From positions 1 to 64,000 of the forward strand of contig NZ_RWJX01000009.1 of the NCBI RefSeq assembly GCF_004123805.1: a stretch of DNA of 64,000 nt, read 5' to 3'. The notes under the pieces are model-generated. The model was not told the DNA's origin. It saw nothing but the letters and a program-made list of their open reading frames with translations, and ran no database searches. How positions within the stretch are numbered: position 1 is the first letter of the stretch; each line of letters opens with the position of its first letter. The translations under genes and the position numbers were made by a program. Source of the stretch: Cellulomonas endophytica (GTDB lineage Bacteria; Actinomycetota; Actinomycetes; Actinomycetales; Cellulomonadaceae). This document shows positions 7,605-31,152 of the stretch, piece by piece.

Positions 7605-8015
7605 TCACAGCTGGGCGGCCAGGGCTTCGACGCGGGCGGCGATGTCGTCCCGCACCAGCCGCATCCGCTCGATGCCGCCGATGCCGCGCTCCGACGGCTC
7701 GTCGGTGTCCCAGTTCACCACCGGCGTGCCGTCGTGCGGCACCACGACCGCCTCGCGGCCCAGCGTCACGACCAGGTCCGCCGCCGCCACGAGCTCGTCG
7801 GTGACGGGCTGGGGCTTCTCCTGGCGGATGTCCACGCCGACCTCGAGCAGGCTCTCGGCGGACAGCGCGTTGACCTCGGCACCCGGCGCGGTGCCCGCGG
7901 ACGCGACGTGGACGGCGGCTCCCGCCACCTTGCGCATCAGCCCGGCGGCCATCTGCGACTTCCCGCCGTTCTTCACGCACACGAACAGCACCGAGGGTCT
8001 GGTGTCCTGGCTCAT
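7605..8015 (-). CDS. ArsC-like low-molecular-weight phosphatase family protein
   Basis: 136 aa. LMW-phosphatase/arsenate reductase fold with P-loop VCVKNGGKSQMA at about 13-24: the Cys is in place, but the canonical Arg before Ser is Lys. VVTLGR and VVNWDTDEP match the distal helix and the Asp loop. Relatives act as arsenate-mycothiol transferases or protein phosphatases; with Lys in the P-loop the activity is uncertain. ATG 8015 is preferred because AGGA sits 8 nt upstream; ATG 8024 is possible. No ars operon partner is next to it. Confidence 0.75.
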   Translation of the reverse strand: MSQDTRPSVLFVCVKNGGKSQMAAGLMRKVAGAAVHVASAGTAPGAEVNALSAESLLEVGVDIRQEKPQPVTDELVAAADLVVTLGREAVVVPHDGTPVVNWDTDEPSERGIGGIERMRLVRDDIAARVEALAAQL

Positions 8016-8438
8016 GGCCGCCATCCTGTCGCGCCGGGCCCGGACGCGTCAGCACGACACCCGGACGACCAGGACCGGACCCGCCGGTCTCACGGGAGCG
8101 GCTCCTGGTAGAGGCCCTGCGACGGACCCGGACGTCGCCGCGCGTCCTCCTACCCGGGCTGTCGACGGGCGGCCTCCGCCGGGTCCTTGAGCCACTCGGC
8201 CCGCCGCAGCGCTTCCAGGTCGCCGCCCGTGGGCTGACGTCGGGGAGCTGCTTCTCGTGGCGACGTCGCTCTGCGAAAGCTGCGGCGCACGACAGGTGCG
8301 TGGTGCGCGACTCATCGAGCGCTTCCAGAGCCAAGATCAACTCGGGCTCGTTCCACTCTCGGGAGAGGCGTGGGGGGAGCTCGTCGTGCGGGCGGTTCCG
8401 TCTGCGAGGGGCGCCTCGACACCGACTGCCGACGGCTT
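8016..8438 (-). other. 423-bp stretch without a convincing gene
   Basis: No frame has both a supported start and actinobacterial codon bias throughout. On the minus strand one frame reads SREWNEPELILALEALDESR and then AAAFAERRRHEK around 8270-8370; this looks like a piece of a helical protein but has no start or clean end, so it may be a gene remnant. This stretch marks the beginning of the accessory region. Confidence 0.4.
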
Positions 8439-25650: not shown

Positions 25651-26091
25651 TCAGTCGACGGGGCGGCCGCCCCGCAGCCGCTTCGTGGCGGAGCGCTGCC
25701 TCTTCGCGGTCAGCCGCCGCTCCTGCGAGCCCCGGGTCGGCCGGGTCGCGCGCCGGGCACGGGCCGGCGGGGCCAGACCCTCGAGGACCAGCGCGACGAG
25801 ACGGCGCTCGGCCGCCGCCCGGTTGCGCAGCTGCTCGCGGTGCTCGGAGGCCGTCACGGTGAGCACCCCGCCGACGAGGCGCCCGCCCAGCGCCGCGAGG
25901 AGCCGGTCGCGCTGCGTCGGCGTGAGCACGGCCGAGCCCGCGACGTCCCAGAGGAGCTCCACGCGCGAGTCCGCCGTGTTGACGCCCTGCCCGCCCGGCC
26001 CGGACGAGCGCGAGAACCGCAGGGACAGCTCCGACCGCGGCACGACGAGGGACGCCCCGACCGCGAGCCCCGACGACGGCAGGGGCCGCAT
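25651..26091 (-). CDS. arfB: alternative ribosome-rescue factor ArfB (YaeJ-type)
   Basis: 146 aa. Class I release-factor-like domain with the GGQ motif in SSGPGGQGVNTADSRVEL (about 30-47) and the typical long basic C-terminal tail (RLTAKRQRSATKRLRGGR) that enters the empty mRNA channel. It hydrolyses peptidyl-tRNA on stalled ribosomes. Length and lack of a codon-recognition domain separate it from RF1/RF2. ATG 26091 is chosen; GTG 26094 is one codon upstream. No operon partner. Confidence 0.9.
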   Translation of the reverse strand: MRPLPSSGLAVGASLVVPRSELSLRFSRSSGPGGQGVNTADSRVELLWDVAGSAVLTPTQRDRLLAALGGRLVGGVLTVTASEHREQLRNRAAAERRLVALVLEGLAPPARARRATRPTRGSQERRLTAKRQRSATKRLRGGRPVD

Positions 26092-26235
26092 CACGCTCCG
26101 CCCGCCGCGTGCATGCCGACCCCCGGGACGTCGTCGCCGCCGGTCGTGCGCCGGGGCCCCGGGACCGTCCCGGCGGGCGCCCACGCTACCGGCCCGCCCC
26201 GACCGGGGCCGGTCGTCGCGGTCGGTCGTCGCGGC

Positions 26236-29508: not shown

Positions 29509-31152
29509 ATGACCTCCCCCGCGACCACGACGACGGCGACCCCGGTCCGGCCGTTCACCGTGCTCGTCGTGGGCACGGAGAACCTCTACCGGTCGCAGGC
29601 GGCGGAGCTGCTCCTGCGGTCGCGGCTCGCCGGCGACGGCGTCCGGGTGCGCAGCGTCGGCACGCGCGCGACCCACGAGGAGCCGGTGCCGCCGCCGCTC
29701 GCCGAGCTGCTGGCCGCCGAGGGGGCGGCCGTCGAGGGGCTGGTCGCCCGCACGCTCGACGCCGCCACGGTCTCCGGCGCCGACCTCGTGCTCACGGCCA
29801 CCCGCGAGGAGCGGGCCGCCGTCGTGCGGCTGGCCCCCACCGCGCTGCACCGCACCTTCACGCTCCGCGAGTTCGCGCGCGTCGCCCGCTCCGTGCCGGG
29901 CACGGCGCTCACCGGGGACGACGTCGCGGCGCGCCTGGCCTCGCTCGTGGCCGCCGCCCGCACCCGCCGGGCCCCCGCGTCCCCGCGCTCGGCCGACGAG
30001 GACGACGTGCTCGACCCCGCCGCGGGCGACGACGCGGCGTACGCGACGTCGCTCGACCAGGTGCGGGACGCGGTCGCGACGATCGTGCGCGCGCTGGATC
30101 CCGGCCACGTGGCCGAGGACCCGGACCCGTCGGAGGCCGACGCACCCGCGCCGCCCGCGCCGGCCCGGCGCCGCAGCCGCACGCGCACGGTGGTCCTGGC
30201 GGTCCTCGTCGCCGTCCTCGTCCTCGTGACCGCGGTGACGATCGGCGCCCTCGTCGTGCTCGACCGGCTCGACGACCGCATCGCGCGGTTCCCCGACCCG
30301 TTCGCGGCCCTGCCCTCGCGCCCCGCACCCGCCGCCCCCGCGACGCCCGGCGCGTCGGACGGGACGCCGGTGACGATCCTCGTCCTCGGCGCGACGGAGG
30401 ACGTGGCCGAGGACGGGCCGGGCGCCTGGGCCGACGCCGCGTCCCTCACGGACACCCTCATGATCGCGCGCGTGTCGGCGGACCGGCGCAGCGCGCAGGT
30501 CGTGGCGGTCCCGCCGGACCTGTGGGCGCAGGTGCCCGGCGTCGGCCCGGGCACCCTGCGCTCCGCGCTCGCCGCCGGGGGGCCGACGCGCGTCGTGCAG
30601 GCGGTCGAGGGGCTCACCGACGTGCGCATCGACCACGTCGCGCTCACGGACGCCGCCACCTTCGCCCGCCTGACCGAGACGCTGGGCGGGGTCGACCTGG
30701 AGCTGGCGCGGGACCTCGTCGTCGACGGCCGCGTCGTCGCCCCCGCCGGGCAGCGTCGCCTCACGGGTGAGCAGGCCCTCCTGTGGGTGCGCGTCGGCGG
30801 CGGCGAGGCCGGCCGGGTCGACCGGGAGCGCGCCTGGTTCCGCGCCATCCTCGACCGGCTCGGCGACCCGGGCGTCCGCCAGGACCCCGGCCTCCTGCTG
30901 GAGCTGCTCGGCGTGACCTCCGACTCGGTCACGGTCGACGAGGGGTTCGACCGGAGCGAGATCGTCGGGCTGCTCACGAGCATGCGCAGCCTGCGCCCCG
31001 CGGACGTCGCGGTCCTCACGGTCCCGACCACCACGGGCCCGGACGACGACGGCGACCCGGTGCTCGTCCCCGACGCCGTCCCCTTCGGGGTGCTCGTCGA
31101 CGCGCTGCGGACGGACACGCTCGGCGACCGCGTCGGGGCCGTCGAGTCCTGA
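29509..31152 (+). CDS. fusion: inactive LMW-phosphatase domain + TM helix + LytR-CpsA-Psr domain
   Basis: 547 aa. Residues about 16-200 follow the LMW protein tyrosine phosphatase pattern: VLVVGTENLYRSQAAELLL at 18-36, ADLVLTATREERAAVV, and the distal DP loop (LDPAAGDDAAYATSLDQV). The catalytic Cys is replaced by Gly22 while R28-S29 remain, so the domain is probably a pseudophosphatase. A TM helix (VVLAVLVAVLVLVTAVTIGA, about 228-248) leads to an exported LCP domain with SLTDTLMIARVSADRR, VAVPPDLW, VDHVALTDAATFARL-like and GEQALLWVR motifs; LCP enzymes attach polymers to the cell wall. Start ATG 29509. Such a fusion could couple cytoplasmic phospho-signalling to wall assembly. Confidence 0.82.
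   Translation: MTSPATTTTATPVRPFTVLVVGTENLYRSQAAELLLRSRLAGDGVRVRSVGTRATHEEPVPPPLAELLAAEGAAVEGLVARTLDAATVSGADLVLTATREERAAVVRLAPTALHRTFTLREFARVARSVPGTALTGDDVAARLASLVAAARTRRAPASPRSADEDDVLDPAAGDDAAYATSLDQVRDAVATIVRALDPGHVAEDPDPSEADAPAPPAPARRRSRTRTVVLAVLVAVLVLVTAVTIGALVVLDRLDDRIARFPDPFAALPSRPAPAAPATPGASDGTPVTILVLGATEDVAEDGPGAWADAASLTDTLMIARVSADRRSAQVVAVPPDLWAQVPGVGPGTLRSALAAGGPTRVVQAVEGLTDVRIDHVALTDAATFARLTETLGGVDLELARDLVVDGRVVAPAGQRRLTGEQALLWVRVGGGEAGRVDRERAWFRAILDRLGDPGVRQDPGLLLELLGVTSDSVTVDEGFDRSEIVGLLTSMRSLRPADVAVLTVPTTTGPDDDGDPVLVPDAVPFGVLVDALRTDTLGDRVGAVES

Follow-up and report, generated by a model that had tools for sequence, protein, structure and literature searches.

In Wzy-dependent capsule modules such as CpsABCD, the LytR-CpsA-Psr (LCP), tyrosine phosphatase and BY-kinase functions are reported as separate proteins, and the phosphatase there, CpsB, is of the PHP type; the available portions of that source describe neither a fusion nor a loss of both activities (PMC12220298). 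EF_3245 of E. faecalis is a reported combination of an LCP part with a phosphatase-type domain (LCP-PAP2), but the phosphatase-type part belongs to the PAP2 superfamily rather than to the low-molecular-weight protein tyrosine phosphatases (LMW-PTPs), and the accessible text states no inactivity for it (PMC2632651). The exchange of a catalytic Cys for Gly is known from the pseudophosphatase STYX, whose reported mode of action is competition for binding; as far as the excerpted source goes, STYX belongs to the dual-specificity phosphatase family, has been studied in animals and has no LCP fusion (PMC8269279).

The gene described here lies in a window of 64,000 nucleotides, the whole stretch of DNA that was analysed, and combines features of all three systems. 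Like STYX, its product has Gly in the place of a catalytic Cys; like EF_3245, it joins an LCP-type domain to a phosphatase-type domain; and some unfused loci of its relatives, like CpsABCD, carry an LCP, a phosphatase and a BY-kinase. With the LCP family (TagT, Cps2A, A. oris LcpA; PF03816) it shares, by sequence, a transmembrane (TM) helix and an LCP domain, but the catalytic Arg/Asp set is missing from all 15 fused copies, which carry an LMW-PTP domain at the N-terminus. That domain is similar to the Wzb-type LMW-PTPs of polysaccharide loci (PF01451), which act on BY-kinases, and some relatives adjoin BY-kinase genes; unlike the Wzb type, however, the fused form has lost its nucleophile and is joined to a membrane protein. 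Neither an LCP-family pseudoenzyme nor an LMW-PTP pseudophosphatase fused to an LCP domain was found among the best-ranked matches in the open-access literature, in agreement with a sequence-only reading of the window that knew of no described system with this architecture. The loss of both active sites in domains of known kinds is what a specialist would not expect.

Architecture of the fused gene

The gene (Table 1) is marked as coding by its base composition by codon position, G+C at third codon positions being 0.93-1.00 in the 300-base windows that start at 29701-30901. Its N-terminal half matches Pfam LMWPc at 5.9e-14 (52.9 bits against a cut-off of 23.2) and is 43-46% identical to four intact stand-alone LMW-PTPs. 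The LMW-PTP domain proposed from the sequence was thereby recovered; of the roughly 200 residues allotted to it, the Pfam match spans only about residues 18-123, while the alignment of relatives does reach about residue 200. An AF2 model of this half, built from a two-row alignment, was weak (pLDDT 57, pTM 0.54), and Foldseek with this weak model returned 42 matches at E <= 0.001, all of them LMW-PTP or ArsC (best E 8e-6) and all with low TM-scores (0.38-0.47 by query length). Structure prediction, which had been suggested as a check on the fold, agrees in the identity of its matches and is limited by the quality of the model. Two scans for viral relatives that could serve as extra alignment rows for folding found none.

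The C-terminal half matches Pfam LytR_cpsA_psr (2.4e-21, 76.9 bits against a cut-off of 24.6), NCBIfam TIGR00350 agrees (1.7e-20, above cut-off), and its PDB matches are TagT, among the best, and other LCP chains, so that the searches with both family models recovered the LCP-type domain as it had been read. Both Pfam domains were above cut-off in all four fused members scanned. For the LCP half on its own, the AF2 model was unusable (pLDDT 40); the fold of this half is presumably retained. In a hydropathy scan the hydrophobic stretch between the halves stood alone, all other 19-residue windows scoring 1.6 or less, in line with the one TM helix previously read as joining them. It is preceded by an Arg-rich flank and followed by one of mixed charge; these charges, together with the habit of the LCP family, would place the N-terminus inside the cell and the LCP half outside.

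Table 1. Features of the fused gene, in window coordinates
Feature	Coordinates	Strand	Basis or remark
Whole gene, 547 aa: predicted pseudo-LMW-PTP, TM helix, pseudo-LCP	29509..31152	+	ATG start
LMW-PTP-like domain, residues 15-200	29551..30108	+	PF01451 (Pfam core 18-123), relatives' alignment, Foldseek
Degenerate P-loop GTENLYRS, residues 22-29	29572..29595	+	Gly22 in catalytic Cys place
Asp-Pro loop DDVLDP, residues 165-170 (Asp169-Pro170), kept	30001..30018	+	Alignment
Single transmembrane helix, residues 227-251	30187..30261	+	Hydropathy maximum 2.99 over 19 residues
LCP-like domain, residues 285-540 (Pfam core 314-450)	30361..31128	+	PF03816, TIGR00350, PDB matches
Former GSDSR motif: Thr296 (was Asp), Asp298 (was Arg)	30394..30402	+	Versus 37 unfused LCPs
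Pro336 in place of catalytic Arg, S-[IL]-P-R-D motif (TagT R118)	30514..30516	+	
Arg351, new fixed residue	30559..30561	+	Asn in 37/37 unfused
Shortened former R-x-R...D..R...Q stretch, residues 426-440	30784..30828	+	TagT R217/R219: one Arg kept, one lost

No exopolysaccharide locus surrounds the window copy. It begins 83 bases downstream of a LuxR-type AAA regulator gene of the same orientation, and genes for an AMP-binding enzyme and a two-component pair come after it. No shared operon partner emerged, as no other window gene was found near 13 other fused copies in stretches of 11-20 kb; the closely related copies L058, L060, L061 and L062 do share neighbours with one another. Elsewhere in the window, positions 25651-26094 (-) encode a small RF-1 domain protein of 147 aa, which from its size we take to be ArfB-like. 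A second LMWPc protein (139 aa, Pfam 1.6e-14) is encoded at 7605-8024 (-); its loop, CVKNGGKS, keeps the Cys and has Lys for the P-loop Arg, and the protein is presumably ArsC-like.

Active-site residues in both halves

The P-loop of the fusion reads VVGTENLYRSQ, with Gly22 at the Cys position of C-x5-R-S. The loss of the nucleophile noticed in the window copy, together with the persistence of Arg28-Ser29 and of the Asp-Pro loop, was correctly read, and it extends to every fused relative: Gly occupies the position in all 15 fused copies found, and an intact Cys, which would have spoken against the reading, in none. In stand-alone LMW-PTPs of relatives, read with a pattern left free at the Cys position, Cys and Arg were both present in 49 of 49 readable P-loops. 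This control comprised 50 open reading frames (the one without a readable P-loop is in L015); the 40 stand-alone PTP stretches used were drawn from the better-scoring ones among the matches listed. The unfused rows of the PTP tree and of the fixed-residue comparison were chosen by a pattern that requires Cys; the 49/49 count is free of that bias.

The remaining residues of the phosphatase site are less uniform. Ten of the 15 fused copies, the window copy among them, still have the P-loop Arg, which has become Asp in one of the others and Pro in four; constant phosphate binding across the fused clade is therefore unlikely, and phosphate binding would make an unlikely shared function on these residues. 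The phospho-dependent sensing earlier proposed for this half is weakened accordingly. The Asp of the Asp-Pro loop is found in 14 of 15 copies, again including that of the window (Phe in G083), and the Pro is lost in G152. Other positions have become fixed or nearly so: Arg107 is present in 15/15 fused copies, and Glu101 in 14/15 against His in 49/49 unfused proteins. Among the stand-alone LMW-PTPs, those of L099 and L107 (genomes G191 and G188) have a P-loop VCTGNLARS and DIIDA replacing the Asp-Pro loop, and possibly form a variant subfamily.

For the LCP half, residues were compared with 37 unfused LCPs, rows below 60 bits and near-copies having been left out. TagT numbering equals the 3mej chain number plus 44, an offset set by putting R118 on S-x-P-R-D; with it, R219 falls on R-x-R and the GSDSR Asp comes to lie at position 82. 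Position 82 is presumably residue Asp82 of TagT. The Arg equivalent to TagT R118 is Pro in 15/15 fused copies against Arg in 37/37 unfused LCPs. The R-x-R pair (TagT R217/R219), kept in 37/37 unfused LCPs, lacks one Arg in every fused copy and both in five (G091, G016, G113, G152 and G800), and the Asp and Arg of GSDSR, present in all 37 unfused LCPs, are both replaced in all 15. What remains of the site are the equivalents of TagT D97 (15/15) and R227 (14/15), and Arg351 has been fixed in all 15 where unfused LCPs have Asn. By analogy with Cps2A D234/D246, the GSDSR Asp and a second Asp would form a metal-binding pair; the first of these is lost from, and the second kept in, every fused copy.

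Roles of TagT R118 and R219 are described in the available part of PMC7831098. In A. oris LcpA, R149A and R266A are reported to abolish GspA glycosylation and R128A is not, according to the accessible portion of PMC6381275; judged by motif, A. oris R149 would be the R118-type Arg. Variation is also seen among unfused LCPs: in one from L065 and one from L012, Thr precedes the catalytic Arg-Asp (LTRD, VTRD) and the R95 position is occupied by Asn. In G113, positions 7348-11427 of L065 hold a cluster of three LCP genes and one intact LMW-PTP, and the fusion of that genome sits elsewhere.

With catalytic residues gone from both halves, the protein is, on its sequence, a double pseudoenzyme and not a wall ligase with a sensor, and both halves probably lack catalytic activity. 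The cell-wall ligase of the sequence-only reading did not survive this comparison: an active LCP enzyme was rejected on residues, the catalytic set being lost 15/15.

Distribution, constraint and origin

Of 221 genomes in the family, 15 carry a full-length fusion (13 of the 196 of good quality), and these belong to 3 of 25 genera. Within the genus it occurs in at least 11 of 81 genomes, among the matches listed. The source genome alone carried it in a sample of the class (246 genomes, E 1e-60), and the source genome and G083 alone in a sample of the order (396 genomes), among the matches listed. Genomes were scored by their best few candidates, and at the thresholds used (E 1e-60 for the class, E 1e-80 for the family) weak fusions could be missed. 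A scan of a collection of genome contigs returned one distant LMW-PTP and nothing more. Within the genus, the fusion and the closest unfused LCP occur in 11 and 9 of 81 genomes with no overlap among the matches listed; this mutual exclusion is not significant, about 1.2 overlaps being expected by estimate.

The 16 fusion copies, in 15 genomes of three genera, contain no internal stop. G800, which is 9% contaminated, has two same-score copies on two contigs, counted once and one of them read; it was added later to the residue counts and to the omega values of pairs with the window copy, the trees, the closer-pair omega values and the first residue alignment having been made with 14 copies. Nine pairs of closer relatives, leaving out the window copy, G113 and G152, gave omega (Nei-Gojobori) of 0.17-0.46 for the PTP half, 0.14-0.39 for the LCP half and 0.06-0.83 for the linker and TM helix. 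Thirteen pairs with the window copy gave 0.42-0.63 and 0.39-0.60 for the PTP and LCP halves at a dS of about 0.6-1.0; these values are probably too high, with nearly all third positions being G or C and holding dS down, and such pairs are weaker evidence of constraint than those of closer relatives. Among close relatives, as judged from these substitution ratios, both halves are under purifying selection. A decaying fusion pseudogene, or an artefact of assembly or frame, could be read into the loss of catalytic residues from both halves and the omega of up to 0.63 in window pairs, but was rejected, and has next to no probability, on the omega of 0.14-0.46 among closer relatives, the absence of stops from 16 copies in three genera and the coding base composition.

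In trees of 14 copies, all fused copies fall on one side of a branch for both the PTP half (100/99) and the LCP half (100/100), with a long stem in the latter (1.34 changes per column); long branches and the odd composition of five rows qualify these trees. The simplest account of these sequences would be one fusion, followed by loss of both active sites and new constraint, and both sites would have gone before the sampled copies diverged. Unfused counterparts indicate what may have preceded it. PTP and LCP genes lie side by side in convergent orientation in G099, G079 and G147, a BY-kinase gene adjoining the pair in the latter two. In G440 and G242 (L044 and L045), from another family of the order, a PTP gene and an LCP gene stand in tandem in the same frame, with 6 nt from the stop to the ATG, complete active-site residues in both genes and a BY-kinase within 2 kb; from such a tandem in-frame layout, fusion through loss of the stop is easy. 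Because the nearest unfused rows are unresolved in the trees, this tandem is an analogue of the layout before fusion and not a direct ancestor.

Genomic company and candidate roles

A BY-kinase above the TIGR01007 cut-off is encoded in 14/14 fused genomes (all but G800). It is also found in 5/5 unfused genomes, and the same search gave matches in 14/14 control genomes, above cut-off in five, so co-occurrence with the fusion says little. The BY-kinase of the source genome has five Tyr within eight residues, 60 residues before its end, and the same genome also encodes an intact LMW-PTP and two LCPs with complete residues (L003, L004). The reading of intact LMW-PTPs covered 12 fused genomes (the source genome, G113 and ten others, with G091, G016 and G800 left out), and complete LCP residues were checked in the source genome and G113. 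Less than 7 kb separates the intact PTP from a BY-kinase in five of the fusion-bearing genomes of the genus (G181, G213, G166, G160 and G161); in the other six the two are more than 100 kb apart or on separate contigs.

The preferred reading, to which a probability of about 0.5 is given, is a transmembrane adaptor or decoy that acts by binding and not by catalysis, and that descends from an exopolysaccharide phosphatase/LCP pair. Ancestral neighbour genes for an LMW-PTP and an LCP glycopolymer transferase, of the type found at exopolysaccharide or BY-kinase loci, would have become fused; both active sites would then have been lost and new residues fixed. The outer pseudo-LCP would dock on a lipid-linked glycopolymer or on a wall or export machine, and the inner pseudo-PTP on a component of the polysaccharide machine, for which the BY-kinase or its Tyr cluster is the likeliest candidate. 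The fusion might thereby couple the two sides of the membrane, or compete with the cell's own intact phosphatase and ligases; ligand, partner and direction of regulation are conjectured here. Set against this reading are the surroundings of the window copy, which lack conserved neighbours and an exopolysaccharide locus, the patchy presence within the genus, the presence of BY-kinases in unfused genomes as well, the loss of the P-loop Arg from five copies, the higher omega of window pairs and the active-site residues still kept in the LCP half. A more specific form is offered tentatively, as a doubtful elaboration: the outer pseudo-LCP might sense lipid-linked polysaccharide but not transfer it, and the inner pseudo-PTP, by covering the Tyr cluster or the docking face of the BY-kinase, might relay this state to the kinase, so that export is coupled to Tyr phosphorylation.

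Other readings were weighed against this one. Rather unlikely is a purely structural wall or membrane protein, in which both domains would persist only as folded scaffolds, with no partners in either signalling or polysaccharide pathways. The patchy distribution, the lack of a neighbourhood shared with the window, the loss of the P-loop Arg from part of the clade and the higher omega of the window copy would all suit such a protein, but the new fixed residues in both halves suggest specific partners, and relatives of both parts sit at kinase/phosphatase/LCP loci. New catalysis at the remodelled sites (Arg351, Gly22, Arg107 and the near-fixed Glu101), for example by an altered lipid-PP hydrolase or transferase outside the cell, is improbable: the kept equivalents of D97 and R227 and the new Arg351 speak for it, but the R118, R-x-R and GSDSR positions used by the known mechanism have all changed. 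It is most improbable that the outer half is an active LCP wall ligase under the control of an inactive phosphatase domain that senses phospho-proteins within the cell, since the kept Arg28 and Asp-Pro loop of the Cys-less window copy and an LCP family match far above cut-off are set against the loss of the LCP catalytic Arg and Asp positions in every fused copy and of the P-loop Arg in a third of them.

The fusion described here bears on how Gram-positive cells couple polysaccharide synthesis inside to attachment outside. It joins in nature a phosphatase within the cell to a ligase outside it, the catalytic sets of both having been lost by evolution and kept so, and as a single gene it lets a purely structural or regulatory link between inside and outside be tested. 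That its relatives keep both halves disabled yet intact suggests, from the sequences compared, that the protein serves sugar-polymer export as a sensor or adaptor and not as an enzyme.
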